Part shown: positions 8,866 through 47,881 of the stretch, piece by piece
Layout: each line of letters starts with the position of its first letter
Position numbering within the stretch: the stretch's first letter is position 1
Assembly (NCBI GenBank): GCA_021734105.1
Contig: JAIPJP010000004.1
Span: forward strand, 1-56,155
Reading direction: 5' to 3'
Length of the DNA stretch: 56,155 nt
DNA from: Candidatus Woesearchaeota archaeon
Lineage (GTDB): Archaea > Nanobdellota > Nanobdellia > Woesearchaeales > SKGA01
Translations under genes and position numbers: made by a program
The notes under the pieces: generated by a model
What the model saw: only the letters and a program-made list of their open reading frames with translations
Told to the model about the DNA's origin: nothing
Databases searched by the model: none

Positions 8866-8949
8866 GGTTATCACCACTAGCAAAAATAAAAGAAGTGCTT
8901 AAAGAAATCAACGAAAAAAATTCCGAAAAGTTTTCGGGAAAATAACAAA

Positions 8950-9842: not shown

Positions 9843-10874
9843 ATGGTAAAAGATTTGATTATACGAAACAGTACCGCCGAATTTTTAATATTTCAATCAC
9901 AACAAAAAGAAGATGCTATCGAAGTTAAATACGCCGATGAGAACGTTTGGCTATCTCAAAAAATGATGGCTAAACTGTTTGATGTAGATGTTAGAACCAT
10001 AAATGAACACCTAAAGAACATATTCCAATCTGAAGAATTAGATGATAAAGCAACTATCCGGAAATTCCGGATAGTTCAACAAGAAGGGAACCGACAAGTC
10101 ACCAGAACTGTTGAGTTCTACAATCTAGATGCAATTATTAGCGTAGGGTATCGAGTAAACTCAAAACGAGCAACCCAATTTAGAATATGGGCAACTAAGA
10201 TTTTAAAACAATTTGCTATCAAAGGATATGTTCTAGACAAAAAGAGATTAGAACATGGCTCATTTCTTAATGAGAATTATTTTACTGAACTTTTAGAAGA
10301 AATTAGAGAAATAAGACTTAGTGAAAGACAGTTCTATCAAAAAATCACAGACATTTATGCTACAAGCCTTGATTATGATACGCATGCTTTGACTACAAAA
10401 GAATTCTTTGCTAAAGTTCAAAATAAACTACATTATGCAATTCATAAACATACTGCTCCTGAGCTTATTATGAAAAGATCTGATGCTAAAAAAGATCATA
10501 TGGGTCTTACAACATGGAAAAATGCTCCTGATGGAAAAATCATCAAAACCGATGTTGCTATTGCTAAAAATTACTTAAAAAAAGAAGAGTTAGAGTCTTT
10601 AAGTAGAATAGTTTCAGCATATCTTGATTTAGCTGAAGAAAGAGCAAAAAGAAAAATTCCTATGACCATGGAAGATTGGGCAAAAAGACTGGACGCATTC
10701 TTAGCATTTGATGAACGAGACATACTACAAAATATGGGAAACATAACCCAAGAGATTGCAAAACAACATGCAGAAACAGAGTTTGAAAAATATAGAATTA
10801 TTCAAGATAATTTATTTCAATCAGATTTTGATATGTTAGTTGAAAAATCTCAAAACTTAACAAAAAAGAAATAA
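9843..10874 (+). CDS. RhuM-family protein (putative DNA-binding, mobile-element associated)
   Basis: 343 aa. The N-terminal half matches the RhuM family: VWLSQKMMAKLFDVDVRTINEHLKNIF (helix-turn-helix-like, about 36-61), TIRKFRIVQQEGNRQV and FYNLDAIISVGYRVNS, then a C-terminal helical region. The family is common in mobile islands of bacteria and archaea; its biochemical function is not established. A perfect 25-nt palindrome lies inside the coding sequence at 10052-10076. It sits between VapBC and MNT/HEPN toxin-antitoxin loci, with repeats on its downstream side. It has its own TATA promoter at about 9807. Confidence 0.85.
   Translation: MVKDLIIRNSTAEFLIFQSQQKEDAIEVKYADENVWLSQKMMAKLFDVDVRTINEHLKNIFQSEELDDKATIRKFRIVQQEGNRQVTRTVEFYNLDAIISVGYRVNSKRATQFRIWATKILKQFAIKGYVLDKKRLEHGSFLNENYFTELLEEIREIRLSERQFYQKITDIYATSLDYDTHALTTKEFFAKVQNKLHYAIHKHTAPELIMKRSDAKKDHMGLTTWKNAPDGKIIKTDVAIAKNYLKKEELESLSRIVSAYLDLAEERAKRKIPMTMEDWAKRLDAFLAFDERDILQNMGNITQEIAKQHAETEFEKYRIIQDNLFQSDFDMLVEKSQNLTKKK
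10052..10076. repeat. Perfect 12+1+12 palindrome inside rhuM
   Basis: Arms AACTATCCGGAA / TTCCGGATAGTT around a single A, encoding TIRKFRIV. A near-copy with the same ends occurs in the non-coding palindrome cluster at 36072-36096. Confidence 0.9.
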
Positions 10875-10925
10875 ATTTCTAGAAGATTTTGTGTTCTAAA
10901 TTACTGCTCAAGAAATGGAACTCGG

Positions 10926-11004
10926 GAGGTCACAAATTGTGACCGGTTACAGAATTTAAAGCATTCAGCCAGTCTGCCATTTGTTTTTACTGAACAAGAC
11001 GTTT
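10926..11004. repeat. 79-bp dispersed repeat with GGTCACAA palindrome, copy 1
   Basis: About 79 bp repeated at 12512-12590 with roughly five mismatches. It contains the perfect palindrome GGTCACAA-A-TTGTGACC (10929-10945). The two copies flank the MNT/HEPN locus in direct orientation. The 66-aa open frame over this copy (10901-11101, minus) is not a convincing gene. Confidence 0.85.
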
Positions 11005-12419: not shown

Positions 12420-12511
12420 TACTTATGCAATTGTCGTTAAGATCAATTTTATTTTTTAGTTTCAGCTTTTTGAAAGAAACATTCAATAGTTCATAACATA
12501 CACAAACTCTA

Positions 12512-12590
12512 GAGGTCACAAATTGTGACCGGTTGGAGAATTTAAAGCATTCAGCCAGTCTGCCTTTTGTTTTTACTGAACAAGGTGTTT
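12512..12590. repeat. 79-bp dispersed repeat with GGTCACAA palindrome, copy 2
   Basis: Second copy of the repeat at 10926-11004; the perfect palindrome is at 12515-12531. Read on the minus strand, the repeat begins exactly at the end of the RumA-tail fragment, whose stop codon is inside it. Confidence 0.85.
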
Positions 12591-31601: not shown

Positions 31602-32339
31602 ATGAGTACAGATGATTTAGTGGAAATTGATGTAAAAGCAGAACTGCAAAAAATTAATGATAAAGGATATATCAAAACTTTAAGAAATGCAGACACAGGA
31701 ATTGGTAAAACTCTAGAAACAGAATTAGGCATTGTTGAAAATAATAATCCTCATGGTGATTTGAAATTTAGAGGGAAAGTTGTAGAGCTTAAAGCACAAA
31801 GAAAAAATTGTTCTTCCAATATCACATTATTTACTTTTGAACCAAGATATAAAAAATATTCAGATGCAGAACTTCTTAAAAAGTATGGCTATAAAGATAA
31901 AGATGGAAGAGTCGGATTAAAAATCACTATGAAGGTAGGAACTATTAATAATCAGGGTTTCACGTTAAAAGTTGATGAAGAAGCAGAAAAAATCAATATT
32001 GTTCATGTAAAGGATGGAGAAGAAGAAATTGTGTGGTCTTATTCATTTGAAAATATTCAAAAGAAACTCGAGAAAAAATTAGCAACAAATCTTTTAATTG
32101 TTCTAGCAGACTCTGAAAAAAGAGAAGACGAATTTGAATATTTTAATTACAATGTTGCTTATTTATTATCTGATTTAAGTTCAGAAAAGTTTGCAGAATT
32201 AATTGATGAAGGAAAAATGGTTGTAGAATTTAGAATGCACCTTAAACCCTCAGGAATTGCAAGAAATCATGGAACTGGATTCAGATTAAATGAAAGATAT
32301 ATTGCTGATCTTTATGAAGATAAAGAAGTCTTAATGTAA
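31602..32339 (+). CDS. MvaI/BcnI-family type II restriction endonuclease
   Basis: 245 aa. NADTGIGKTLETELGI (about 25-40), ENNNPHGDLKFRGKVVELKAQR with the catalytic D...ExK, and NITLFTFEP are characteristic of the MvaI/BcnI fold. The C-terminus has RNHGTGFRL, the loop contributing the conserved His. These enzymes cut CC(W/S)GG-type sites; specificity here is inferred from family only. It precedes a convergent ASCH protein and a matching methyltransferase. Confidence 0.83.
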   Translation: MSTDDLVEIDVKAELQKINDKGYIKTLRNADTGIGKTLETELGIVENNNPHGDLKFRGKVVELKAQRKNCSSNITLFTFEPRYKKYSDAELLKKYGYKDKDGRVGLKITMKVGTINNQGFTLKVDEEAEKINIVHVKDGEEEIVWSYSFENIQKKLEKKLATNLLIVLADSEKREDEFEYFNYNVAYLLSDLSSEKFAELIDEGKMVVEFRMHLKPSGIARNHGTGFRLNERYIADLYEDKEVLM

Positions 32340-32603
32340 TCATTTAAAGTTTTTAATTTCTAAAATTTTCCCCAAATGTATGGAAAATTCTCCTTTTTCT
32401 TTTTTCAAGCCCCTCCATTCAACCCTCATAAATGGTGCATCTTTATTATAACCATTTTTGAACCAAATCTCATCATAAGTTTTATTCTCTAAACGTTTAA
32501 TCCAATAAGGTTTTATCTCTCTATACTCTTTAGTTTTTTCACCAGAAGCAATTTTTTCAAACCATTTTCTAAGCAAAGTGAGATGAAGAATACGCTTTTC
32601 CAT
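32340..32603 (-). CDS. ASCH/PUA-like domain protein
   Basis: 87 aa: RILHLTLLRKWFEKIASGEKTKEYREIKPYW is a typical ASCH opening (L-x-x-x-W-x-x-x-I-x-x-G-x-K-x-x-E-x-R). The domain binds RNA or modified nucleotides. It sits 1 bp from the endonuclease stop and directly behind the methyltransferase gene, so it may belong to the restriction-modification operon. Confidence 0.8.
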   Translation of the reverse strand: MEKRILHLTLLRKWFEKIASGEKTKEYREIKPYWIKRLENKTYDEIWFKNGYNKDAPFMRVEWRGLKKEKGEFSIHLGKILEIKNFK

Positions 32604-32604
32604 T

Positions 32605-33879
32605 TTAGTTCTTCTCTAAAATAACAATCCATTCCTCATTCATAGTTACTGCATGGTTTCCAGATTTATTTGTTGGACTATTTAATTTAGGCATCCTTTT
32701 ATGAGGAATATTTCGAATAAAAGTATTAATGTGATCATACGAATTCTGAGCTTTGAATAATTCAATAATAATTTCATCTGTAGGAATTTGAACACCTTTT
32801 ACTGTTCTATTCCCAACAACAAAACATAAATGAGATCCTTTTTTCATGATTCTATCTAACTCTTTTACACACAAGTCAAAATCAATATAAAAACTCAGAA
32901 CATCTCTTGCTCTTTTTGGATCAATTGAACTAATTTTATTAATTATTTTCGTTAATGTAGGGGAATTTAGATCATGTAATAAGTCTTTGGTTGGCTTTCC
33001 CCCCAAACTTACTTTATCTATGTTGATTACTGTCTCTTTGTCATAACCCAACCATTGCAAAGCTAATCTTGAAAATTGACCATAAGCAACAGTTGTTCTA
33101 CTATCTCCATATGGAGGAGAGGTTACTATTAAATCAACCGAATTATCGGGGATGGATGTTTTTAATCTTGTATCTTCTGCAAGTATATTTATTTCACATT
33201 TATCGTTATATTGTGACCAGTATTCCTTCATTTGAACAATATTTTTTGTTGCTTTTTTATGAAATTCCTCGATAGTATTAGGATTATGATCATCCATCAT
33301 CTTTTGATTCATCCTATATAATTTGAATTCTCTATTTCTAGTGTAAGAAACATTTCTAACAGTTTCAGAAAAAGCAATTAAGAAAAAATCTCTTATATCT
33401 TTATCTTTAATTGAATTAATACACTCTTTAATAACAGCAAGATCTGTTATCACATCTTCTTTAAACCAAAACTCTATATTAAAAAAATTTGGTTTTGAAA
33501 TATTTGATTTGTCATCAATTGAGTTGATCTTTTTCATTAAATTTTGAAAAGCAGAATCTAATTTCACTGGATTAATAGGAGTAGTTTTGACCTTTGAAAT
33601 AAGCAAGGCTAAGGGATTTATATCTATCCCATAAGACTTTTTAAAATTAGTATGTAGTGTTGCTTCAAGTAAAGCAGTTCCTGACCCCATAAACGGATCT
33701 AGAATCACAGACTTATCACCCCCATACATTTCTATTAATCTTTTTGCGACTTGAGGAATCATCATTGCAGGGTATGTGTGAAATCCATGATTACTATATT
33801 TAGTAAAGGAAGTCCTAAAGTCCCAAGTCTCATCCTTATATTTGATTGGTTTATCCATTTGTAAGCTTACTGATTGCAT
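32605..33879 (-). CDS. DNA methyltransferase, probable N4-cytosine type
   Basis: 424 aa. SAM motif DPFMGSGTALLEA (about 61-73) precedes the catalytic motif TSPPYGDS (about 247-254); S/T-P-P-Y favours N4-cytosine or N6-adenine amino methylation. It should protect the sites of the MvaI/BcnI-like nuclease, whose classical partner methylates N4 of cytosine. An internal ATG at 33858 is an alternative start. It overlaps the HTH gene by 29 nt. Confidence 0.85.
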   Translation of the reverse strand: MQSVSLQMDKPIKYKDETWDFRTSFTKYSNHGFHTYPAMMIPQVAKRLIEMYGGDKSVILDPFMGSGTALLEATLHTNFKKSYGIDINPLALLISKVKTTPINPVKLDSAFQNLMKKINSIDDKSNISKPNFFNIEFWFKEDVITDLAVIKECINSIKDKDIRDFFLIAFSETVRNVSYTRNREFKLYRMNQKMMDDHNPNTIEEFHKKATKNIVQMKEYWSQYNDKCEINILAEDTRLKTSIPDNSVDLIVTSPPYGDSRTTVAYGQFSRLALQWLGYDKETVINIDKVSLGGKPTKDLLHDLNSPTLTKIINKISSIDPKRARDVLSFYIDFDLCVKELDRIMKKGSHLCFVVGNRTVKGVQIPTDEIIIELFKAQNSYDHINTFIRNIPHKRMPKLNSPTNKSGNHAVTMNEEWIVILEKN

Positions 33880-35706: not shown

Positions 35707-35901
35707 TTACATAAAGATTTTGTACTTTTTCCCATCTACATCTTCTAATTTCAACTGGTTAGTATTACTAACCAACTCACTTTCTTCCTTTTTTAGCTTA
35801 TTTTTAAGCCATTTCCAGTAATTACGAACCTTTTGATAATCTGACTGATCAGTTAAAATTCCAATTACATTAAGTATAAATGACCAAAATTCATTATTAA
35901 A
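35707..35901 (-). pseudogene. Remnant of a BRO-N-type antirepressor gene
   Basis: The minus strand reads FNNEFWSFILNVIGILTDQSDYQKVRNYWKWLKNKLKKE...VSNTNQLKLEDVDGKKYKIFM then stop, with a stop also just upstream (35902-35904). This matches the core of the BRO-N prophage antirepressor domain (VIGxLT, DYxKxRxYWxxLKxKLxKE, NxxQLKL). The start and the C-terminal part are missing. Confidence 0.7.
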
Positions 35902-35904
35902 CTA

Positions 35905-36300
35905 AAGATTTTGTGAAAAAATCACAAAAATAGCACTTTAATCCCTAAAAATAGGCTTTTTAGGAAGAACATAAGAGTAGGTACAAATTGTACCCCCTTT
36001 CAACTGTACACAAATTGTGTACAATTCACAATTTCTTCAAATAAGAGATATCGACAAATTGTCGACATCTCAACTATCCGATTTTTCCGGACAGTTCAAT
36101 CGTTTACTTTCATAAACATATGATTACAAAAATAAACTCAACTATTTGGAAATACTTAACAGTTCAAAAGTAGACAAATATGCGAATCATATATTAATAA
36201 TTCGCATTAACATATACTCTAAAAAAACACAATTTCCTTTAAATAGGAAATATCGACAAATTGTCGACGCTTCAATTGTACGATATAATCGTACATCTCA
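35905..36300. repeat. Cluster of different palindromes
   Basis: No gene. Palindromes in order: TTTTGTGA/TCACAAAA (35909-35929); CCTAAAAA/TTTTTAGG (35944-35964); GGTACAA-A-TTGTACC (35980-35994); TGTACACAA-A-TTGTGTACA (36005-36023); a 27-nt one with arms GAGAT-ATCGACAA (36045-36071, one mismatch); AACTATCCG.../CCGGACAGTT (36072-36096); a decayed relative at 36140-36164; TGCGAAT/ATTCGCA (36181-36206); TCGACAA-A-TTGTCGA (36253-36267); TGTACGAT-ATA-ATCGTACA (36277-36295). A 40-bp direct repeat (36027-36066 and 36228-36268) includes two of them. Confidence 0.9.
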
Positions 36301-36308
36301 GAGTATAA

Positions 36309-36563
36309 TTAAGCTGAAACTTGTTCATAACTCTCTTTCAATTTAGTAAGTCCAAACACTCCATCTCCCATTCTTACAAACACATTATGTGTATCTCTCA
36401 TGAGTACTGCGATGACTGTTCTTTCTGGTGTTTTTCCTTTGCTTGATTTTGTCTTGAGTATCTCTTTTGTCAAATCTACATAGTGCATAGGTTTCTTCTG
36501 TTCTTTGAGTACTTTGTATGCCATATCGTAAAAAGATCCTTTCTGTACTTTTGTATCTTTCAT
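36309..36563 (-). CDS. HARE-HTH domain protein (left copy)
   Basis: 84 aa: GSFYDMAYKVLKEQKKPMHYVDLTKEILK and KTPERTVIAVLMRDTHNVFVRMGDGVFGLT form a HARE-HTH (HB1/ASXL/RpoE-delta type) winged helix. GGAGG is 8 nt upstream. It is the last gene of the minus-strand replication module; a conserved TTTATAAA element sits in the repeat just upstream. The partner copy is at 45283-45522. Confidence 0.8.
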   Translation of the reverse strand: MKDTKVQKGSFYDMAYKVLKEQKKPMHYVDLTKEILKTKSSKGKTPERTVIAVLMRDTHNVFVRMGDGVFGLTKLKESYEQVSA

Positions 36564-36604
36564 GTTTTTTACCTCCTGTATAAGTTATCTTATTTAATAC
36601 AGAA

Positions 36605-36901
36605 GATGCTCTAAGAGATTTATAAACACCGTCGAGATACAATCTAGCCATTGGAATCGCTAGATTCGTCTGTAGGAAACAAGAAAGAAACATACTTCTT
36701 ATTCAAAGAATATTTCTTATTCAAAAACTCTAAAGTATCAAGATCTTTTTTAGAATAAGTAAGAGAAGAGGCAACCTGCTTAGAAAAATCCCTATTGCCC
36801 TTCATCTTCTGCAAAAGAAAAAAACAATAACCATCACTTCTTTTAGAACACTCACCAATTGCAGGGCAATCAATGCAACGAAGAAGCAGATGAAGATTAG
36901 A
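36605..36901. repeat. Long inverted repeat, left arm
   Basis: The reverse complement matches 44957-45253 with constant coordinate sum (81858), hence no indels, and by eye over 90% identity. It covers the 3' half of the KGGK/CxxC gene and the downstream promoter of the HARE-HTH gene. Flanking parts of the same genes are much less alike. Confidence 0.85.
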
Positions 36902-37036
36902 AGAATACTTGCCATGTTTCAAATTTTTTACTCCATTTGATTTTGTCTTCTTTGCACTTGACATCTTACCACCTTTGACTTGATCCTCAAAAGTAAGCAA
37001 GTGAATGTTTCCATTGAAGTTGTCAAGTCTACTCAT
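36644..37036 (-). CDS. KGGK-motif zinc-binding protein, type 2 (left copy)
   Basis: 130 aa. N-terminal TFEDQVKGGKMSSAKKTKSNGVKNLKHGKY, then four cysteines in LRCIDCPAIGECSKRSDGYC, then a charged helical C-terminus (SLTYSKKDLDTLEFLNKKYSLNKKY). It is paralogous to the gene upstream (shared D-x-x-KGGK...K-x-GKY plus Cys4). It may bind DNA through the basic segment; function unknown. The start overlaps the upstream gene by 4 nt. Its 3' half is inside the long inverted repeat. Confidence 0.72.
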   Translation of the reverse strand: MSRLDNFNGNIHLLTFEDQVKGGKMSSAKKTKSNGVKNLKHGKYSSNLHLLLRCIDCPAIGECSKRSDGYCFFLLQKMKGNRDFSKQVASSLTYSKKDLDTLEFLNKKYSLNKKYVSFLFPTDESSDSNG

Positions 37037-37449
37037 CGACTCATTGCCTCTTGAAGTTCAAGCATCATGATAAGAAACTTCTGACCTGCCAATGCTGAAA
37101 CCTCAGGATCATTACTATACGTTTTCATATAAGAATCCAAGAAGTCAGAGATATACAAATCAAACTCTTCAATAGTTGCAAAGCCTTTAGACTTCATGAT
37201 AGAATATATCATCCTTGTAGAAAAGAGTCTGCAAGGCTCATCACTCTTTACCCTGTAAGGACATACTGCAGTGACCTTGCAAAGAGAACACACCTTTATC
37301 GCTTTAGTTGCATACTTTCCAGACTTCATTGAATTAAGTCTTGCAGAAAGAATCCGTTTTAAGGTAACTGTCTTTCCTCCTTTTATTCTGTCTTCTTTTG
37401 TAAGTTTGTGTGGTTTACCACCAAATAATTGTTTTTTATCTTCATTCAT
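37033..37449 (-). CDS. KGGK-motif zinc-binding protein, type 1 (left copy)
   Basis: 138 aa. TKEDRIKGGKTVTLKRILSARLNSMKSGKY followed by VCSLCKVTAVCPYRVKSDEPC (C-x2-C-x5-C-x8-C) and a helical tail. GGAGG precedes the ATG, which overlaps the ATPase gene by 8 nt. Counterpart at 44412-44825. The repeated basic K-x-GKY motif and zinc site resemble small DNA-packaging or replication accessory proteins, but no family is recognised. Confidence 0.7.
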   Translation of the reverse strand: MNEDKKQLFGGKPHKLTKEDRIKGGKTVTLKRILSARLNSMKSGKYATKAIKVCSLCKVTAVCPYRVKSDEPCRLFSTRMIYSIMKSKGFATIEEFDLYISDFLDSYMKTYSNDPEVSALAGQKFLIMMLELQEAMSR

Positions 37450-38992
37450 TTTTATCCTCCTTTTCGACTGTTAGAACCTTCTGATAATCGAATTTACTCA
37501 CTTCGTTTTTTGCTTCATCATCACAGATGAACTCTTCTTCCACAACAAGATTGCTACCTGTCAACCTTGACATATCATTTTCATCACTAAAGGTATGAGT
37601 TTCCTTATCATAATCAACAAAATCAAGAACATAAGGTGCAATCTCTTTTCCTTCATAGATTTCTTTTGCTTCTTTACTATTCAACCAATCTGTCAATACA
37701 CTATCAATCTCTTTTACCTTAACAGGTATGGCTAGGCTACTGATAGGTGAATTGATAGGTCTAAACAAGAAAGCCTTATTTGTGATCATAGCATTGTAGT
37801 AGACATCAATCTTATCCTTATCTTTTAATTCTGCAATCCAACGCTTAATCGTATTGACAGAACTAATGCCAAGATCTTGCTGTGCCTTATGCCTAAGAAT
37901 CCAATTACAATAATGATCCTCAAAACCAAGATTACTGATATCAGCACAATGATTACCAATATTCTCTTTGGCATAATCTAAGAGTCTTTGCAAACGATGA
38001 TCTATTCCTGAATACGTCAAGTTGATAAAATCACTAAATATAATCAATGCATTCAAGAAATCACTTGGCTCAGCATAGATAAAAGTCACATTGTTGATGG
38101 TCTTTGTCACACGCTGTTTTTGATAAAGCCAGGTAATAGCACGAGTAAGAGAAATTATTCTTTTCACATCTCTTTTGACTCTGTCTTTTGTCGTATCAAA
38201 AATTTCTTTACCTGAAACTTCTTTATCAAGAACATCAGTAAATGGTAATATAACGTAACAATCCTTATCAAGTAAAGAGATAGAAGTTGCAATCCAAGAT
38301 TCCTCATCGATAGTCTTTGCAAGATAATAAGAGACATCCCTTGCTTTTTTCAACGTATCAGAAATGACAATCTTATTCTTCTCTTTATATCCTGTTATTG
38401 GAATGATAACATATCTTGTCTCAAGCTCTTCATCACTTTCAGTCTCTGTTGTCCCATAGATTAATGTCTTCTGTTCTTGATCAGTTCTAATCGCTGTCTT
38501 AAAACCAGTCTTTGCATCTTTCTTTAAAGTAGTTGTTCCACCTTCAGCCATCTGCTTAAACGTCTCGACAATCTCAGCATTAGCACCACGCTCACGATTC
38601 TTATTGATCTCAGAAAAAGCAATGATTCGCTTATCCTTAACATCATCCTCAAGAGTCGCAGTTGTTGCTCTAGTCACTTTAATCCAATCATCTTTAGGGA
38701 TATGTGAAAGAACAGTATCTACACAACTATCCTTTCCTGCAGAACTATTACCTTTCAATGCACAACTGCAATGATCTTTAGGATCTTTCAGATAAGAAGA
38801 TATTGCAACAATAAACACACCAAGTTTCTCCTTATGATCAAGCTTATGTCTTTTGTCAAGTTCAAGATGAATCTCTTTTAAGAGTTCATCAGAAAAGAAC
38901 TTCATATCAAGAACTGCATTAATCCTCTTATACTCTGCAACCACATCAGGATCATCAAGCTCAAAGACCAATCGTTTTAATGCCTCACTCAT
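37442..38992 (-). CDS. AAA+/SF3-like ATPase, putative replicative helicase (left copy)
   Basis: 516 aa. Walker A GNSSAGKD at 81-88, Walker B RIIAFSEIN at 122-130, a sensor-like YGTTETES near 180 and an Arg-finger candidate in ETRYVIIP (Arg193). A winged-helix-like region (VNTIKRWIAELKDKDKIDVYYN) lies near 395-420 and the C-terminus is acidic. The gene overlaps the primase gene by 4 nt (ATGA), the pairing typical of primase-helicase modules of plasmids and viruses. Its counterpart is at 42488-44026, with the motifs at the same residue numbers. Confidence 0.78.
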   Translation of the reverse strand: MSEALKRLVFELDDPDVVAEYKRINAVLDMKFFSDELLKEIHLELDKRHKLDHKEKLGVFIVAISSYLKDPKDHCSCALKGNSSAGKDSCVDTVLSHIPKDDWIKVTRATTATLEDDVKDKRIIAFSEINKNRERGANAEIVETFKQMAEGGTTTLKKDAKTGFKTAIRTDQEQKTLIYGTTETESDEELETRYVIIPITGYKEKNKIVISDTLKKARDVSYYLAKTIDEESWIATSISLLDKDCYVILPFTDVLDKEVSGKEIFDTTKDRVKRDVKRIISLTRAITWLYQKQRVTKTINNVTFIYAEPSDFLNALIIFSDFINLTYSGIDHRLQRLLDYAKENIGNHCADISNLGFEDHYCNWILRHKAQQDLGISSVNTIKRWIAELKDKDKIDVYYNAMITNKAFLFRPINSPISSLAIPVKVKEIDSVLTDWLNSKEAKEIYEGKEIAPYVLDFVDYDKETHTFSDENDMSRLTGSNLVVEEEFICDDEAKNEVSKFDYQKVLTVEKEDKNE

Positions 38993-39492
38993 CTCGACTC
39001 CCTCAACAATGTCTTTGGTTGTCCAGTCTTGAAATGCTCAGTATCCTCAAGAGCAATCAACACATTATCAGAAGCCATATGAGGATCACACTTAAACTTA
39101 GAAATCAAATAACCTCTAATCTTCTGACGAGAAACATGAGAATACTTCATCAAAGAATTCTCAAAAATGTGAATGTGATACCCTTTTGAACCACTAAAAT
39201 ATGCCTTATACAAAAAACCATACGTATCAAGCTCATCACAGATATCATTCATTCGTTTTTCAGATGCATCTTCATCCATATCAAGAATTATCTCGGAGTT
39301 GAGAATCTGACGGCAATTAGCAACACCTAAAAACTTCATACCTTCATCTGACTGCCACAACTCAAGCACATTCTTTCGCTTAGTAAACGTTTTTTTGTCT
39401 CCTCGGACAAAACCTTTAGCAACCTTAAAGTCACCATACTTATTACATAATCCGACAAGGTACGATGAACGTTCCCCTTCAGTAAAGACCAT
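38989..39492 (-). CDS. Minimal archaeo-eukaryotic primase (left copy)
   Basis: 167 aa. Motif I ILDMDED with the metal-binding Asp71/Asp73, motif II SGSKGYHIHIF (100-110), and a motif III-like EHFKTG near 152 match the AEP/PriS core, but the protein is less than half the length of cellular PriS and has no visible zinc site. It should prime DNA synthesis of the element with the adjacent ATPase. Its start is inside the end of the small gene at 39479. Confidence 0.8.
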   Translation of the reverse strand: MVFTEGERSSYLVGLCNKYGDFKVAKGFVRGDKKTFTKRKNVLELWQSDEGMKFLGVANCRQILNSEIILDMDEDASEKRMNDICDELDTYGFLYKAYFSGSKGYHIHIFENSLMKYSHVSRQKIRGYLISKFKCDPHMASDNVLIALEDTEHFKTGQPKTLLRESR

Positions 39493-39649
39493 CCTCTAAA
39501 ACCTCCATCCGGACAATCCTACTTTTAGGGATAACATGACGATGATCAAGAGTAATAGAAAACTCATCATCACAAGAGACTACACCCTCACGATAAGAGA
39601 TCTTCTCACCATCATCAAAATATACCTTCGCCTTCTTTGATTTCATCAT
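39479..39649 (-). CDS. Small beta-rich protein of the replication module (left copy)
   Basis: 56 aa, translated by eye: MMKSKKAKVYFDDGEKISYR, EGVVSCDDEFSITLDHRHVI, PKSRIVRMEVLEDGLY. It aligns with the product at 41804-41983 (VKVFFDDGEKIAWREG...DDFSIVLDD...IPLSRVIRMEV), which supports both as real genes. An SH3- or Sm-like beta barrel is plausible. Its end overlaps the primase start by 14 nt. Confidence 0.78.
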   Translation of the reverse strand: MMKSKKAKVYFDDGEKISYREGVVSCDDEFSITLDHRHVIPKSRIVRMEVLEDGLY

Positions 39650-39661
39650 GATCAAACCTTA

Positions 39662-41803: not shown

Positions 41804-41983
41804 ATGGAGCGTTGGAAAAAAATGAAAGGCAAGAAGGTAAAAGTATTCTTCGATGATGGAGAAAAAATAGCCTGGCGAGAAGGCATTGCAACATCACAAG
41901 ATGATTTCTCAATTGTATTAGATGATAAAGATCTGATTCCGTTATCAAGAGTTATCAGGATGGAGGTAGTTCATAATGGATAA
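41804..41983 (+). CDS. Small beta-rich protein of the replication module (right copy)
   Basis: 59 aa from ATG 41804; ATG 41822 (MKGKKVKVFF) is the better match to the left copy's start and may be the real one. VKVFFDDGEKIAWREGI and SRVIRMEV align with the 56-aa protein at 39479-39649. It overlaps the primase gene by 8 nt. Likely a tiny DNA- or protein-binding beta barrel. Confidence 0.75.
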   Translation: MERWKKMKGKKVKVFFDDGEKIAWREGIATSQDDFSIVLDDKDLIPLSRVIRMEVVHNG

Positions 41984-42491
41984 GATTGCTGAAACTGCCA
42001 CCACAGAAAGTTCTACAAGGCTTGTGAATCTTGCTAATAAGTATGGAGATTTTAAGGTTGCATGGGGCTATGCACGAGGAGAGGAAAAGAAGTTTAGCAA
42101 GAGACAAACAGTTAATGAATTAATGAAGTCTGACAAAGGAATTCAGTTCTTAAACAAAGCTAACTGTAGACAAGTCTTACCTTGCGAGATCATTCTTGAC
42201 ATGGATGATAATATTTCTGAAGAACGATTGAATAAGATTTGTGATGAGCTCGACAATTATGGTTTTACTTACAAGGCTTATTCAACGGGATCTAAAGGTT
42301 ATCACATTCATATTTTTGATGATGATCTTGTGAAATACACTGAAAAGTCCATGCATAAGATTAGACATCATCTTATTTCTAAGTTTCAGTGTGACCCTCA
42401 AATTGCTTCAGGTAATGTGTTGATTGCTCTTGAAAATGTTCCTCATTTTAAGACAGGAAAAGTGAAGACTTTAGTGAGGGAATCAAAATGA
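41976..42491 (+). CDS. Minimal archaeo-eukaryotic primase (right copy)
   Basis: 171 aa. Motif I ILDMDDN, motif II STGSKGYHIHIF and motif III-like PHFKTG align with the left copy, including NKYGDFKVA near the N-terminus. Roughly half the residues are shared by eye, so the pair is old or evolves quickly. It overlaps the small gene upstream and, by 4 nt, the ATPase gene downstream. Confidence 0.8.
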   Translation: MDKIAETATTESSTRLVNLANKYGDFKVAWGYARGEEKKFSKRQTVNELMKSDKGIQFLNKANCRQVLPCEIILDMDDNISEERLNKICDELDNYGFTYKAYSTGSKGYHIHIFDDDLVKYTEKSMHKIRHHLISKFQCDPQIASGNVLIALENVPHFKTGKVKTLVRESK

Positions 42492-44026
42492 GTGAAGCAT
42501 TAAATAAGATCATAAAGGAAATGAATGATCCTGAAGTTTTAGCTGAGCATCAAAAGATTAATGCAAGAATTGATCCTAGATTTGAATCTCCTGAACTCTT
42601 AAAACACATTCATGCTGAATTAGATAAAAGGCATAAGCTAGATCATAAGGAGAAATTAGCTGTTTTTATTGTTGCTGCATCAGGTTATTTACGAGATGCA
42701 AGAGACCACTGCAGTTGTGCTTTGAAAGGGAATAGCAGTTCTGGAAAAGATAATGTTATGGATACGGTTCTTGCTCATTTTCCTAAAGATGATGTTATGA
42801 AAGGAACAAGACTGACAAGTCCTAGTTTAGAGGATGATGTTAAAGATAAGAAGGTCATTGCGTTTTCTGAAATCAATAAACATCGTGAAGGTGGAGCAAA
42901 TTCAAGCATAGTAGAAACATTCAAGCAACTTGCAGAAGGTGGAACCTGCACATTAAAGAAAGATGCTAAAACTGGTTTTAAAACAGCTATTCGTAACGAG
43001 CAAAAACAAAAGACACTGCTTTATGCAACAACAGAAACAGAGTCAGATGAAGAGATGGAGACAAGATATGTAATTGCTCCAATCAGAGGCTACAGGGAGA
43101 AGAATAAGATTGTTGTTGACGATGTCTTAGATAAGGCTAGTGATGAAGAATATTATCTTGAAAAGAATAAGCAGGAAGATTCATGGATAGCTACTTCTAT
43201 CTCATTGCTTGATCAAGAAGTGCAAGTAATTATTCCTTACAGCAAAGTATTGTCTCAAAAAGTTGATGGAAAAGAAATATTTGACACTAGAAAAGACAGA
43301 GTTAAGCGAGATGTAAAAAGGATCATGTCATTGACCAGAGCTAATGCCTGGCTTCATCAACTGCAAAGAAAATCTAAGTATGTTAGTGATATGAAGTTTA
43401 TTTATGCAGAACCAGCTGACTTCATCAATGCTCTGAAAATATTTGCTGATCTTGTCAATTTAACCTATTCTGGCATAGATCACAGACTTCAACGATTATT
43501 AGAGTATGTTGAAGAAAATGTCGGGAAGCACAAAGAAGAAATAAAAATAATGGGTTTTCAGGAAAAGTATTTTGATTGGGTCCTTAGACATAAAGCACAG
43601 AAAGCTTTGAAGATAGGTTCAGTCAAGACTATTCGTGACTGGTGTGGAAAACTAGCAGACAAAAATAAGATAGAAATCTACAAAGATCAGTATGTCAATA
43701 AACGTACAGTCATGCTTCGACCTATACATTTGACCAGTAACAACCTAGCACTACCTGTTAATATTACTAATATTACCATGTTGTTACAGGCATGGTTAGA
43801 GTCAGATCATGCTAAACAAATCTATCAAGATCATAAAATTATACCTTTTATTATTGATTTTGAGGATTATGGTGAGGATATTGATGATGAACCAGACAAT
43901 TCTAGTACTTATTATGACGAAAATGACATGTCAGAAAGTACATGTGAAGAACTGATTGTAACAGAAGAATATGTCTCTGATGAAAAAGACACAGAACATC
44001 AAAAAATGTTAGATTTGGAGGATTAA
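42488..44026 (+). CDS. AAA+/SF3-like ATPase, putative replicative helicase (right copy)
   Basis: 512 aa. Walker A GNSSSGKD at 81-88, Walker B KVIAFSEIN, sensor YATTETES and ETRYVIAP as in the left copy, with KRHKLDHKEKL before Walker A in both. The C-terminal acidic tail is also conserved. It is coupled to the primase by ATGA overlap. It most likely unwinds element DNA for the adjacent primase. Confidence 0.78.
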   Translation: MSEALNKIIKEMNDPEVLAEHQKINARIDPRFESPELLKHIHAELDKRHKLDHKEKLAVFIVAASGYLRDARDHCSCALKGNSSSGKDNVMDTVLAHFPKDDVMKGTRLTSPSLEDDVKDKKVIAFSEINKHREGGANSSIVETFKQLAEGGTCTLKKDAKTGFKTAIRNEQKQKTLLYATTETESDEEMETRYVIAPIRGYREKNKIVVDDVLDKASDEEYYLEKNKQEDSWIATSISLLDQEVQVIIPYSKVLSQKVDGKEIFDTRKDRVKRDVKRIMSLTRANAWLHQLQRKSKYVSDMKFIYAEPADFINALKIFADLVNLTYSGIDHRLQRLLEYVEENVGKHKEEIKIMGFQEKYFDWVLRHKAQKALKIGSVKTIRDWCGKLADKNKIEIYKDQYVNKRTVMLRPIHLTSNNLALPVNITNITMLLQAWLESDHAKQIYQDHKIIPFIIDFEDYGEDIDDEPDNSSTYYDENDMSESTCEELIVTEEYVSDEKDTEHQKMLDLED

Positions 44027-44030
44027 AAAA

Positions 44031-44408
44031 ATGAGTATTGAATATGAAATGTATGAAAAGAATTATGTTGCTAGAAAAACGCATCCCTGCATTAATCCAA
44101 GATGCACTAATTTTGTTGAAATGCAAAACAGTTACAATATTTGTATGAAATGTTTTGATTTGCTTGTAGATTATCTTGGTTCAGAACATCTTATTTTTGA
44201 TTATTCTACTATGCCTGCTCTTAGAAGAATGACTACTAAACAGCTAATGAGTGCATTAAGACGGGCTGAGAATAAATATCCTTGTGTTGAGTCTGTTAAG
44301 CGAGGAAGTTCTAATTGTCAAAGAAGATGGCATAAACGAATAATTGTTGAAACGAACAGACAAAAAACACATTTTCTGATAGTTCTAACAGGCGAAAACG
44401 GAGGTTAA
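44031..44408 (+). CDS. Zinc-finger protein present only in the right-hand module
   Basis: 125 aa with HPCINPRCTNFV (C-x4-C) and NICMKCFDLL (C-x2-C) near the N-terminus forming a zinc ribbon, and a basic C-terminus (KRGSSNCQRRWHKR). GGAGG precedes the ATG. The left module lacks this gene between the ATPase and KGGK genes, so it is an insertion in one copy or a loss in the other. Function unknown. Confidence 0.62.
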   Translation: MSIEYEMYEKNYVARKTHPCINPRCTNFVEMQNSYNICMKCFDLLVDYLGSEHLIFDYSTMPALRRMTTKQLMSALRRAENKYPCVESVKRGSSNCQRRWHKRIIVETNRQKTHFLIVLTGENGG

Positions 44409-44411
44409 ACA

Positions 44412-44825
44412 ATGGAAAACAATATGAAGAATTTTAAAGGAAAAATTCATGTACTAACACATGAAGATAGAGTTAAAGGTGGAAAGACAAGGTCACTAAA
44501 AAGAACCCTTTCTGCAAGACTTAACGCAATGAAGAATGGCAAATATTCGCAAGGAATAAAGACTTGTGACAAGTGCAAGGTTACTTTTCCTTGTATGTTT
44601 AAAACAAAAGAGCCATATCAAAAGTGTGAATTGTTTAGTGCTAAGATGATTTATTCTGTTATGAAAGCAAGAGAATTGCCAACAGTTGAAGAGTTTGATA
44701 ATTTCATCTCAGACTTTGTCAATGATTATACAAAGATGCAAGACAAAGATAGTAAAACAGCTATGGCTCATTTTGTACCTTTCATGGAAAAACTTCTTGA
44801 TGTAAAAGAGGCAATGTATAAATGA
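44412..44825 (+). CDS. KGGK-motif zinc-binding protein, type 1 (right copy)
   Basis: 137 aa: THEDRVKGGKTRSLKRTLSARLNAMKNGKY and TCDKCKVTFPCMFKTKEPYQKC match the left copy at 37033-37449, as does FSAKMIYSVMKA. GGAGG lies 8-12 nt upstream of the ATG. It overlaps the next gene by 4 nt. Possibly DNA-binding; unrecognised family. Confidence 0.7.
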   Translation: MENNMKNFKGKIHVLTHEDRVKGGKTRSLKRTLSARLNAMKNGKYSQGIKTCDKCKVTFPCMFKTKEPYQKCELFSAKMIYSVMKARELPTVEEFDNFISDFVNDYTKMQDKDSKTAMAHFVPFMEKLLDVKEAMYK

Positions 44826-45214
44826 ATAGACTTGACAACTTCAAAGATAAATCATACACTTTTACTTTAGAAGATCGAAGAAAAGGGGGAAAGATTTCAT
44901 CTAAGAAGAAAAGTCTTGCCAATGGACTAAAGAACTTAAAGCATGGAAAAAACTCTTCAAATCTTCATTTGCTTCTTCGTTGCATTGATTGTCCTGCAGT
45001 TGGTAATTGTTCTAAACGAAGCGATGGTTATTGTTTTTTTCTCTTGCAGGAGATGAAGGGCAATAGGGATTTTTCTAAGCAGGTTGCCTCATCTCTAACT
45101 TATTCTAAAAAAGATCTTGATACTCTAGAGTTTTTGAATAAGAAATATTCTTTGAATAAGAAGTATGTTTCTTACTTGTTTCCTACAGACAAATCTAGCG
45201 ATTCCAAAGGCTAG
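44822..45214 (+). CDS. KGGK-motif zinc-binding protein, type 2 (right copy)
   Basis: 130 aa. The first 45 residues differ from the left copy, but from SSNLHLLLRCIDCPA to the C-terminus the two are almost identical, matching the long DNA inverted repeat. The Cys4 site and the K-x-GKN segment are kept. This sharp change of identity within one gene is a sign of gene conversion. Confidence 0.73.
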   Translation: MNRLDNFKDKSYTFTLEDRRKGGKISSKKKSLANGLKNLKHGKNSSNLHLLLRCIDCPAVGNCSKRSDGYCFFLLQEMKGNRDFSKQVASSLTYSKKDLDTLEFLNKKYSLNKKYVSYLFPTDKSSDSKG

Positions 45215-45253
45215 ATTGAATCTCGACGGTGTTTATAAACCTCTTAGAGTATC
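44957..45253. repeat. Long inverted repeat, right arm
   Basis: Reverse-complement partner of 36605-36901. It includes a TATA-like TTTATAAA (about 45232) shared by both arms, followed at the same distance by the HARE-HTH genes. Confidence 0.85.
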
Positions 45254-45282
45254 AACACATCAAAACTGGAGGTTTGATAAGG

Positions 45283-45522
45283 ATGGAAAAGAAGGACTCA
45301 TTTTACAACCTAGCAAAAAAGATTTTGCTAGAACAAAAAAAGCCAATGCACTACACAGACTTGACAAAAGAGATACTCAAGATCAAAGCGACAAAAGGCA
45401 AAACACCAGAAAGAACAGTAATAGCAGTAATGCTAAGAGACACACACAACGTATTCATGAGAGTAGGAGACGGAGTGTTCGGCTTAACAAAACTAAAAGA
45501 ACAATATTCCACCAAAACGTAA
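45283..45522 (+). CDS. HARE-HTH domain protein (right copy)
   Basis: 79 aa from ATG 45283 (MEKKDSFYNLAKKILLEQKK). GGAGG is about 10 nt upstream, and the alignment to the left copy starts here, so the longer frame from 45229 is rejected. About 75-80% of residues are shared with 36309-36563, while the DNA is diverged outside the inverted repeat. A winged-helix regulator or replication accessory protein. Confidence 0.8.
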   Translation: MEKKDSFYNLAKKILLEQKKPMHYTDLTKEILKIKATKGKTPERTVIAVMLRDTHNVFMRVGDGVFGLTKLKEQYSTKT

Positions 45523-47232: not shown

Positions 47233-47807
47233 TTTGCAACCCTCCAGACAAATCCTTCTACATCTTTTATTATTATATGATTTCCTACGACTTCTTTTAG
47301 TAGGATATCGCTACCAATTTCCTTTTCAAAAAGGTTCATAGGATAACTCTTGATGTTTATATCAATTCCGTACTTTTTGCCAACTTCCTTGATCTTATCC
47401 TCATCATACTTGCCCACTATGAATAGATCAAGATCAGAATCATCTTTCTGGATTCCTTTAGCATAGCTTCCAAATAATATGACTATGCCATGCAGGTAAT
47501 CCTCTGCTTTTTCAAGAATTTCCTTAATCAAGTGATTCTTTTCTAAGAACTGGATTCTCTTATACTGCTCTGTTAAAACAAAATATTCCCTTGATAATCC
47601 AGATTTCTTTATAGAATAAGTCTTGATCTTACCCTTGGTCTTTGACTCTAAAATGCCCTTCTTTTCAAGCTTAGCAAGCGTTACAAGGGCAGTTCTAGAG
47701 CTGACCTCAAGAAGCTTCTCGACCTCTCTGATATAATACTCTTTATCATAGCCTTTCGTGAACAAGTTTAATATTCTCAAATCCATATCGTTTACTTTTG
47801 TAAGCAT
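47220..47807 (-). CDS. MNT-type nucleotidyltransferase with winged helix
   Basis: 195 aa. A winged helix (YYIREVEKLLEVSSRTALVTLAKLEKKGIL) precedes the nucleotidyltransferase core LFGSYAKGIQKDDSDLDLFIV, with Gly113-Ser114 and Asp125/Asp127. ATG 47786 is an alternative start. It should neutralise the HEPN partner and repress the operon through the inverted repeat centred on its start codon. It is similar in design, not close in sequence, to the pair at 11242. Confidence 0.82.
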   Translation of the reverse strand: MLTKVNDMDLRILNLFTKGYDKEYYIREVEKLLEVSSRTALVTLAKLEKKGILESKTKGKIKTYSIKKSGLSREYFVLTEQYKRIQFLEKNHLIKEILEKAEDYLHGIVILFGSYAKGIQKDDSDLDLFIVGKYDEDKIKEVGKKYGIDINIKSYPMNLFEKEIGSDILLKEVVGNHIIIKDVEGFVWRVAKWIK

Positions 47808-47824
47808 ATGAGTATAAAAGTAAA
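47791..47824. promoter_or_regulatory. Operator of the MNT/HEPN operon
   Basis: Arms TTTACTTTT (47791-47799) and AAAAGTAAA (47816-47824), centred on the start codon at 47807. A minus-strand TATA (TTTATATACTTC) lies immediately upstream at about 47827-47838. Confidence 0.72.
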
Positions 47825-47881
47825 CAGAAGTATATAAATGTTTTGGTTTGAATCTCGAAATATTTATATAACATATTTAAT

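Follow-up and report, generated by a model that had tools for sequence, protein, structure and literature searches.

Genes of the BRO-N, ORF6N and RhuM families in archaea, bacteria and phages carry an in-frame palindrome at one fixed place in the N-terminal domain, and the bases of this palindrome change with the recognition helix of the encoded protein. Because helix and in-gene palindrome covary when kinship is controlled, each gene holds the predicted binding site of its product, and on this covariation the palindrome is very probably the site bound by the gene's own protein.

The starting point was a set of palindromes in the window, by which we mean the whole stretch of 56,155 nucleotides analysed here. 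All of the palindromes named in a preliminary description were located, namely GGTACAAATTGTACC at 35980-35994, TGTACACAAATTGTGTACA at 36005-36023, TCGACAAATTGTCGA twice (36051-36065 and 36253-36267), GGTCACAAATTGTGACC twice (10928-10944 and 12514-12530) and AACTATCCGGAAATTCCGGATAGTT at 10052-10076 within rhuM. The description had counted about ten palindromes around 36 kb; the cluster itself was confirmed, with a lower count of about seven strong dyads and one imperfect one. Region 35905-36300 contains 7 dyads (arm ≥7, loop ≤5) and has the highest palindrome density in the 1.07-Mb genome, whereas second-order Markov shuffles had 0.36 on average and at most 4, and none of 2000 reached 7. The bare ACAAATTGT core is without genome-wide enrichment (36 sites vs 28 for the reversed pattern). 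Far from being spread at random, ACAAATTGT dyads with arms ≥8 were confined in a scan of the 1.07-Mb genome to the 36-kb cluster, two ORF6N relics and one BRO gene on contig 5. The distinguishing trait of the palindromes is their long arms, not the ACAAATTGT core. The genes, relics and sites of the window are as follows, with the strand where one applies:

9843-10874, plus strand: intact rhuM gene (PF13310, E 1e-111; PADLOC PDC-S05)
10052-10076: own-type site of rhuM, AACTATCCGGAAATTCCGGATAGTT, encoding TIRKFRIV; other RhuM genes share its helix VRTINEH and half-site TATCCGGA
10919-11004, plus strand: ORF6N gene relic 1 (VTNCDRLQNLKHSASLPFVFTEQDV), containing GGTCACAAATTGTGACC at 10928-10944
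12505-12590, plus strand: ORF6N gene relic 2, 92% identical to relic 1, containing GGTCACAAATTGTGACC at 12514-12530
35728-35901, minus strand: BRO-N gene remnant, helix ...QKVRNYWKWLKNKL, then ELVSNTNQLKLEDVDGK (E 8e-14 in tblastn against BRO proteins; the intact gene L427 shares its helix and site type)
35756-35774: own-type site of the BRO remnant, TGGTTAGTATTACTAACCA, in frame; half-site GGTTAGT as in the YWKWL-type gene L427
35980-35994: array site 1, GGGTACA, assigned to QYIKKM/QYIKRM-type BRO (exact half-site match, 3 genes)
36005-36023: array site 2, GTACACA, assigned to YW[NS]M-type BRO (exact half-site match, 3 genes)
36045-36071: array site 3, GTCGACA (arms extending to GAGAT with one mismatch), assigned to YWYR type (exact half-site match)
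36072-36096: array site 4, minus strand AACTGTCCGGAAAAATCGGATAGTT, imperfect, assigned by eye to RKYWSDL type (GTCCGA) against L288, L431 and L405
36253-36267: array site 5, the second GTCGACA, in a 57-bp repeat of 36027-36082 (assigned by half-site match and repeat)
36277-36295: array site 6, GTACGAT, assigned to KRYWSDL type (exact half-site match, 9 genes)

Around GGTCACAAATTGTGACC the two ORF6N relics read VTNCDRLQNLKHSASLPFVFTEQ. They are of equal 86-bp extent and both start near the left arm of the palindrome; one follows rhuM and the other a nucleotidyltransferase-HEPN-like pair. A reading of the relics as cassette ends with repeated promoters was rejected, as it reduced to a common promoter motif. 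The motif CACTGGACAA...GATATATAAA recurs at 8949, 9786 and 11076, each time ahead of a gene start, and resembles an archaeal promoter or operator common to the three genes.

In ORF6N genes of related archaea, where the PF10543 match was found, the palindrome stands directly before GGRRYLPYVFTEQG, with arms that differ between genes but are compensated. It precedes DGKxYxxxxYNLDAII in RhuM genes and DGKxRxTDCANT in BRO-N genes. Same-place ORF6N palindromes, with arms of up to 20 bp, occur in Bacteroidota, Campylobacterota, Planctomycetota, Patescibacteria and Proteobacteria. ORF6N genes carry one to four successive palindromes in frame and several genes have in-frame foreign-type sites too, while part of the RhuM genes are without a clear palindrome. 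Across 262 related archaeal genomes (120 of them with a BRO match), ORF6N-type sites lie in or beside ORF6N genes, their relics or arrays, and of such sites in 47 bacterial genomes almost all fall inside ORF6N genes. Profile alignment of the N-domains with hhalign placed the palindrome segments of BRO and RhuM against each other (E 2.8e-4, at a probability of only 41%), and that of ORF6N aligned over the helix-turn-helix (HTH) only. An AlphaFold model of ORF6N presents the palindrome segment as a disordered loop between helix and strand (residues 74-83, pLDDT <50), and the modelled C-terminal domain has a phospholipase-D-like fold with NucT and Zucchini matches at modest TM-scores. Two further occurrences were seen in passing. 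A phage gene family (L440, L452, L489, L495 and related viral loci) contains two ORF6N-type sites, GTCGCA and ATCACA, in frame and reading ...RRKITNCDLKDKVADCDLED..., and the ORF6N gene of L058 carries a further palindrome of its own type at the C-terminal end (NLKSQIATSSRY), with two sites of BRO type right downstream.

The preliminary description had proposed that the dyad itself is selected, and this is borne out both by the helix-site matching in three families described below and by synonymous-codon shuffles that kept the protein (ORF6N n=115, BRO n=28, RhuM n=19). The best in-gene palindrome score was 11.1 against 4.5 in the shuffles for ORF6N, 9.5 against 4.3 for BRO and 9.1 against 4.9 for RhuM. 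The palindrome centre falls at codon position 1 or 2 in ORF6N, 2 in BRO and 3 in RhuM, and the ORF6N palindrome is translated in different frames (LRSQIVT, ELVTNCDRF). Since every codon phase is represented, what is conserved is not the peptide, and selection acts on the DNA. Here a DNA site has shaped protein sequence, the conserved RSQIVT motif of ORF6N being the translation of the palindrome.

When ORF6N genes are sorted by half-site their recognition helices are sorted too. Helix LxQ goes with ACA (51/54), LxEQ with GCA (36/36) and Lx[KR]A with CCA (17/20), and helices with LK or LR instead of LN are paired with GGTAT. The rule is valid in both reading frames and across phyla, and more than one palindrome was present in many of the exceptional genes that were inspected. 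A tree built from the ORF6N C-terminal regions shows 38 changes of the helix class and 40 of the base, with 7 of 7 phylogenetically independent pairs agreeing in direction (p=0.016). For BRO, the YWxxx triplets map nearly one-to-one on the half-sites: YWKVL and YWRVL with TTACA, YWNKL and YWRKL with TGACA, YWYRL with CGACA, YWSML with CCACA, YWSDL with [AC]CGA, YWGVL with TAACA and YWGKV with CCCC. In RhuM, TINEH corresponds to GGA, xTKH or xSKH to CCA or GCA, and QNISLH to GTCAAG. The match between helix and site holds after control for relatedness: with C-terminal distance controlled, partial Mantel r was 0.37, 0.30 and 0.54 in the three families (0/999 permutations as high), and among close BRO relatives (C-terminal identity >60%) half-site identity was 0.98 for pairs with the same helix and 0.45 for pairs with different helices. 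The earlier suggestion that the palindromes are sites tied to RhuM/BRO-type genes is thereby upheld, the in-gene sites matching the helices.

The BRO-N remnant said to stand beside the 36-kb cluster is genuine by its tblastn matches, and its helix is YWKWL; the cluster lies upstream of this decayed gene. Since the recognition code assigns its sites to other BRO types, the cluster is likely a multi-specific array of six foreign-type sites with five specificities. All array sites apart from 36072-36096 are exact matches to dictionary half-sites. The description had also held a second class of palindrome to be common to the cluster and rhuM, of which the part concerning AACTATCCGGAAATTCCGGATAGTT in rhuM stands, but the GGAAATTCC-like site at 36072-36096 is nearer the BRO type (GTCCGA) than the RhuM type. 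Two of the seven dyads, 35909-35929 and 35944-35964, matched no known half-site, and Rfam gave no match. Another genome of the same order has a noncoding array (L073) that matches that of the window over 90 bp, with order and spacing kept and with compensated arms (GGTACA/TGTACC vs GGGACA/TGTCCC). Because of these compensated arms the window array looks maintained rather than decaying, as far as this one pair of sequences indicates. DNA of the window array had no match in phages, and that of the L073 array none in plasmids. A further group of four different ORF6N-type palindromes within about 120 bp, outside an ORF6N gene (L310, 1501-1621), resembles the 36-kb array. Within the array, 36099-36145 is 81% identical to 47787-47833, with CATATGATTAC, and the stretch resembling it in L076 runs across the beginning of an HTH-nucleotidyltransferase (MNT) gene; the palindrome array may thus contain a start-of-gene fragment.

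The array adjoins one arm of a large inverted duplication whose copies, 36334-39656 and 41812-45500, have diverged to ~70% identity. The duplicated unit codes for a HARE-HTH protein and for a primase-like protein that is hard to recognise, and is probably a mobile element present as two copies head to head. Nothing links the palindromes to replication, despite the degenerate primase-like module near the cluster, and the idea of a replication origin found no support, as genes of three families hold sites of the same sort in frame in many phyla. Elsewhere in the window, at 31602-33879, an MvaI/BcnI-type restriction enzyme beside a DNA methyltransferase forms a type II restriction-modification pair.

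Dictionary sites also occur in the flanks of intact genes of the three families, at 0.39 per kb within 150 bp upstream and 0.03 per kb farther upstream, with 0 in shuffles. Viruses contain ORF6N-type sites that stand alone, in at least 36 independent contexts compared with 12 and 0 for two scrambled patterns, and in 111 of 120 such viral contigs there was no ORF6N domain in the stretch examined. This excess over the controls is modest, and 13 of the 36 sites resemble transcription terminators with T-runs; because the controls and the terminator-like T-runs weakened them, the stand-alone sites carry little weight as evidence of phage cross-immunity. A scan of viral contigs for TGTCGACAAWTTGTCGA returned mostly chance matches in ordinary genes, together with two BRO genes and a few intergenic sites.

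The main rival to self-recognition is autoregulation, in which the in-gene palindromes are ordinary operators, the protein represses its own gene by an intragenic roadblock and the foreign-type sites upstream serve cross-regulation. It explains the self-site as well as self-recognition does: a cognate helix-site code would be expected of an autoregulator, the additional sites just upstream of genes are in the usual operator place, and an internal operator would preserve regulation after a gene moves to a new promoter. The likeness to autoregulatory HTH repressors extends to a dimer-type palindromic site matching the recognition helix. Here, however, the fixed homologous site is in coding sequence, and sites close to the promoter have other specificities: of the 14 within 150 bp upstream, none carries exactly the half-site of its gene. 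Moreover, across all phyla the own-type sites are found at a depth of >200 bp in the gene, and several genes also hold foreign-type sites in frame. We regard autoregulation as a serious contender with the lesser share of the probability. For the 36-kb cluster, the alternative is a graveyard of several dead BRO genes and nothing more, as the true BRO remnant next to it and the minus strand of array site 2, still readable as ELYTICVQLK, would suggest. Apart from this peptide, the surroundings of the other sites yielded no BRO coding sequence, and the order, spacing and compensated arms kept in the L073 array are not those of a graveyard, which we therefore hold to be unlikely.

Palindromic elements are known from Rickettsia genes, and REP sequences with RAYT transposases are palindromes in and around a gene whose product would read them. 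Small mobile palindromes, which the preliminary description had also offered as a reading, would account for the variable number (one to four) in frame in one loop and for the copies in gene flanks. Against insertion stand the single fixed, homologous position in the genes and the distinct half-site of each helix class, which matches the protein's helix. ORF6N-type sites in the 262 relatives are confined to these genes, relics, arrays or their flanks, and dispersed copies in unrelated places were not found, either among long ACAAATTGT dyads in the genome or with GGTCRCANNNTGYGACC in the 262 relatives. In contrast to REP/RAYT, there is no HUH transposase here and there are no REP-like copies dispersed across the genome. 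Mobile palindromes are accordingly very improbable, and we judge RNA or single-strand DNA hairpins (for mRNA regulation or a hairpin-recognising transposase) to have just as slight a chance. Stems of up to 20 bp with loops of 1-5 nt would suit hairpins, but mismatches have no G-U bias over A-C (21:17; RhuM 0:5, BRO 0:2), and the half-site sequence is conserved beyond pairing and matched to a DNA-reading helix.

We propose that BRO-N, ORF6N and RhuM proteins are HTH proteins with varied C-terminal effector domains which, presumably as dimers, would bind a palindrome (half-site, 3 to 5 nt, inverted half-site) in their own coding sequence. Helix and site are separated by at most ~100 bp, so that they travel and change specificity together. 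Much as aba restrains BstA, the in-gene site would be a self tag by which a replicon escapes the defence-like protein that it encodes; foreign-type sites beside a gene or in an array would confer cross-immunity against other family members. By analogy with BstA and aba, self-recognition tagging of candidate defence proteins, comprising self tag and cross-immunity, has about an even chance of being the function of the sites, and the explanation as a whole (cognate site, multi-specific array and self tag) is slightly favoured.

BstA is a prophage abortive-infection defence protein with a KilA-N-like domain, and aba, which overlaps its gene, restrains BstA, works as DNA and does so only on the cognate variant (PMC8585504). 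The features in common are a DNA-binding N-terminal domain, a short DNA element in or overlapping the gene, and cognate specificity; covariation reveals a cognate in-gene DNA element paired with its own protein variant in all three families. Whereas aba measures 63 bp, sits where its gene starts and has CCCGCC direct repeats, with neither a palindrome nor a recognition code reported for it (PMC8585504), the palindrome here is in a mid-domain loop and its bases are predictable from the helix. In PADLOC, ORF6N and RhuM match PDC-S05 and BRO matches PDC-S13/S04 (the BRO N-domain match to the PDC-S04 profile being weak), and the proteins here thus belong to these very families, which are described as candidate single-gene systems only, with no DNA element mentioned in the papers cited. 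The PDC candidates were nominated by a guilt-by-embedding screen, and most of them await validation (PMC12988326), and deletion of PDC-S04 had no measurable effect in one study (PMC12409345).

A literature search, with subscription papers and preprints mostly outside it, returned nothing on palindromes in ORF6N, BRO or RhuM genes, and 'ORF6N' together with 'palindrom' was met only in a Fusobacterium phage genome paper, which appears unrelated. HTH proteins, candidate defence families and aba are known parts; what appears to be new is a helix-readable site inside the coding regions of three families that span two domains of life, together with the multi-specific arrays. Genes of the BRO-N, ORF6N and RhuM families are very common, and the code gives the predicted binding sites of their proteins from sequence alone, making these sites testable by gel shift. 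It is also a possible molecular basis for cognate self-recognition of the BstA kind. More tentatively, and with somewhat less than even probability, the three families may write their DNA address in their own genes while mobile elements collect the addresses of their rivals, which together would amount to a passport system of self and non-self.
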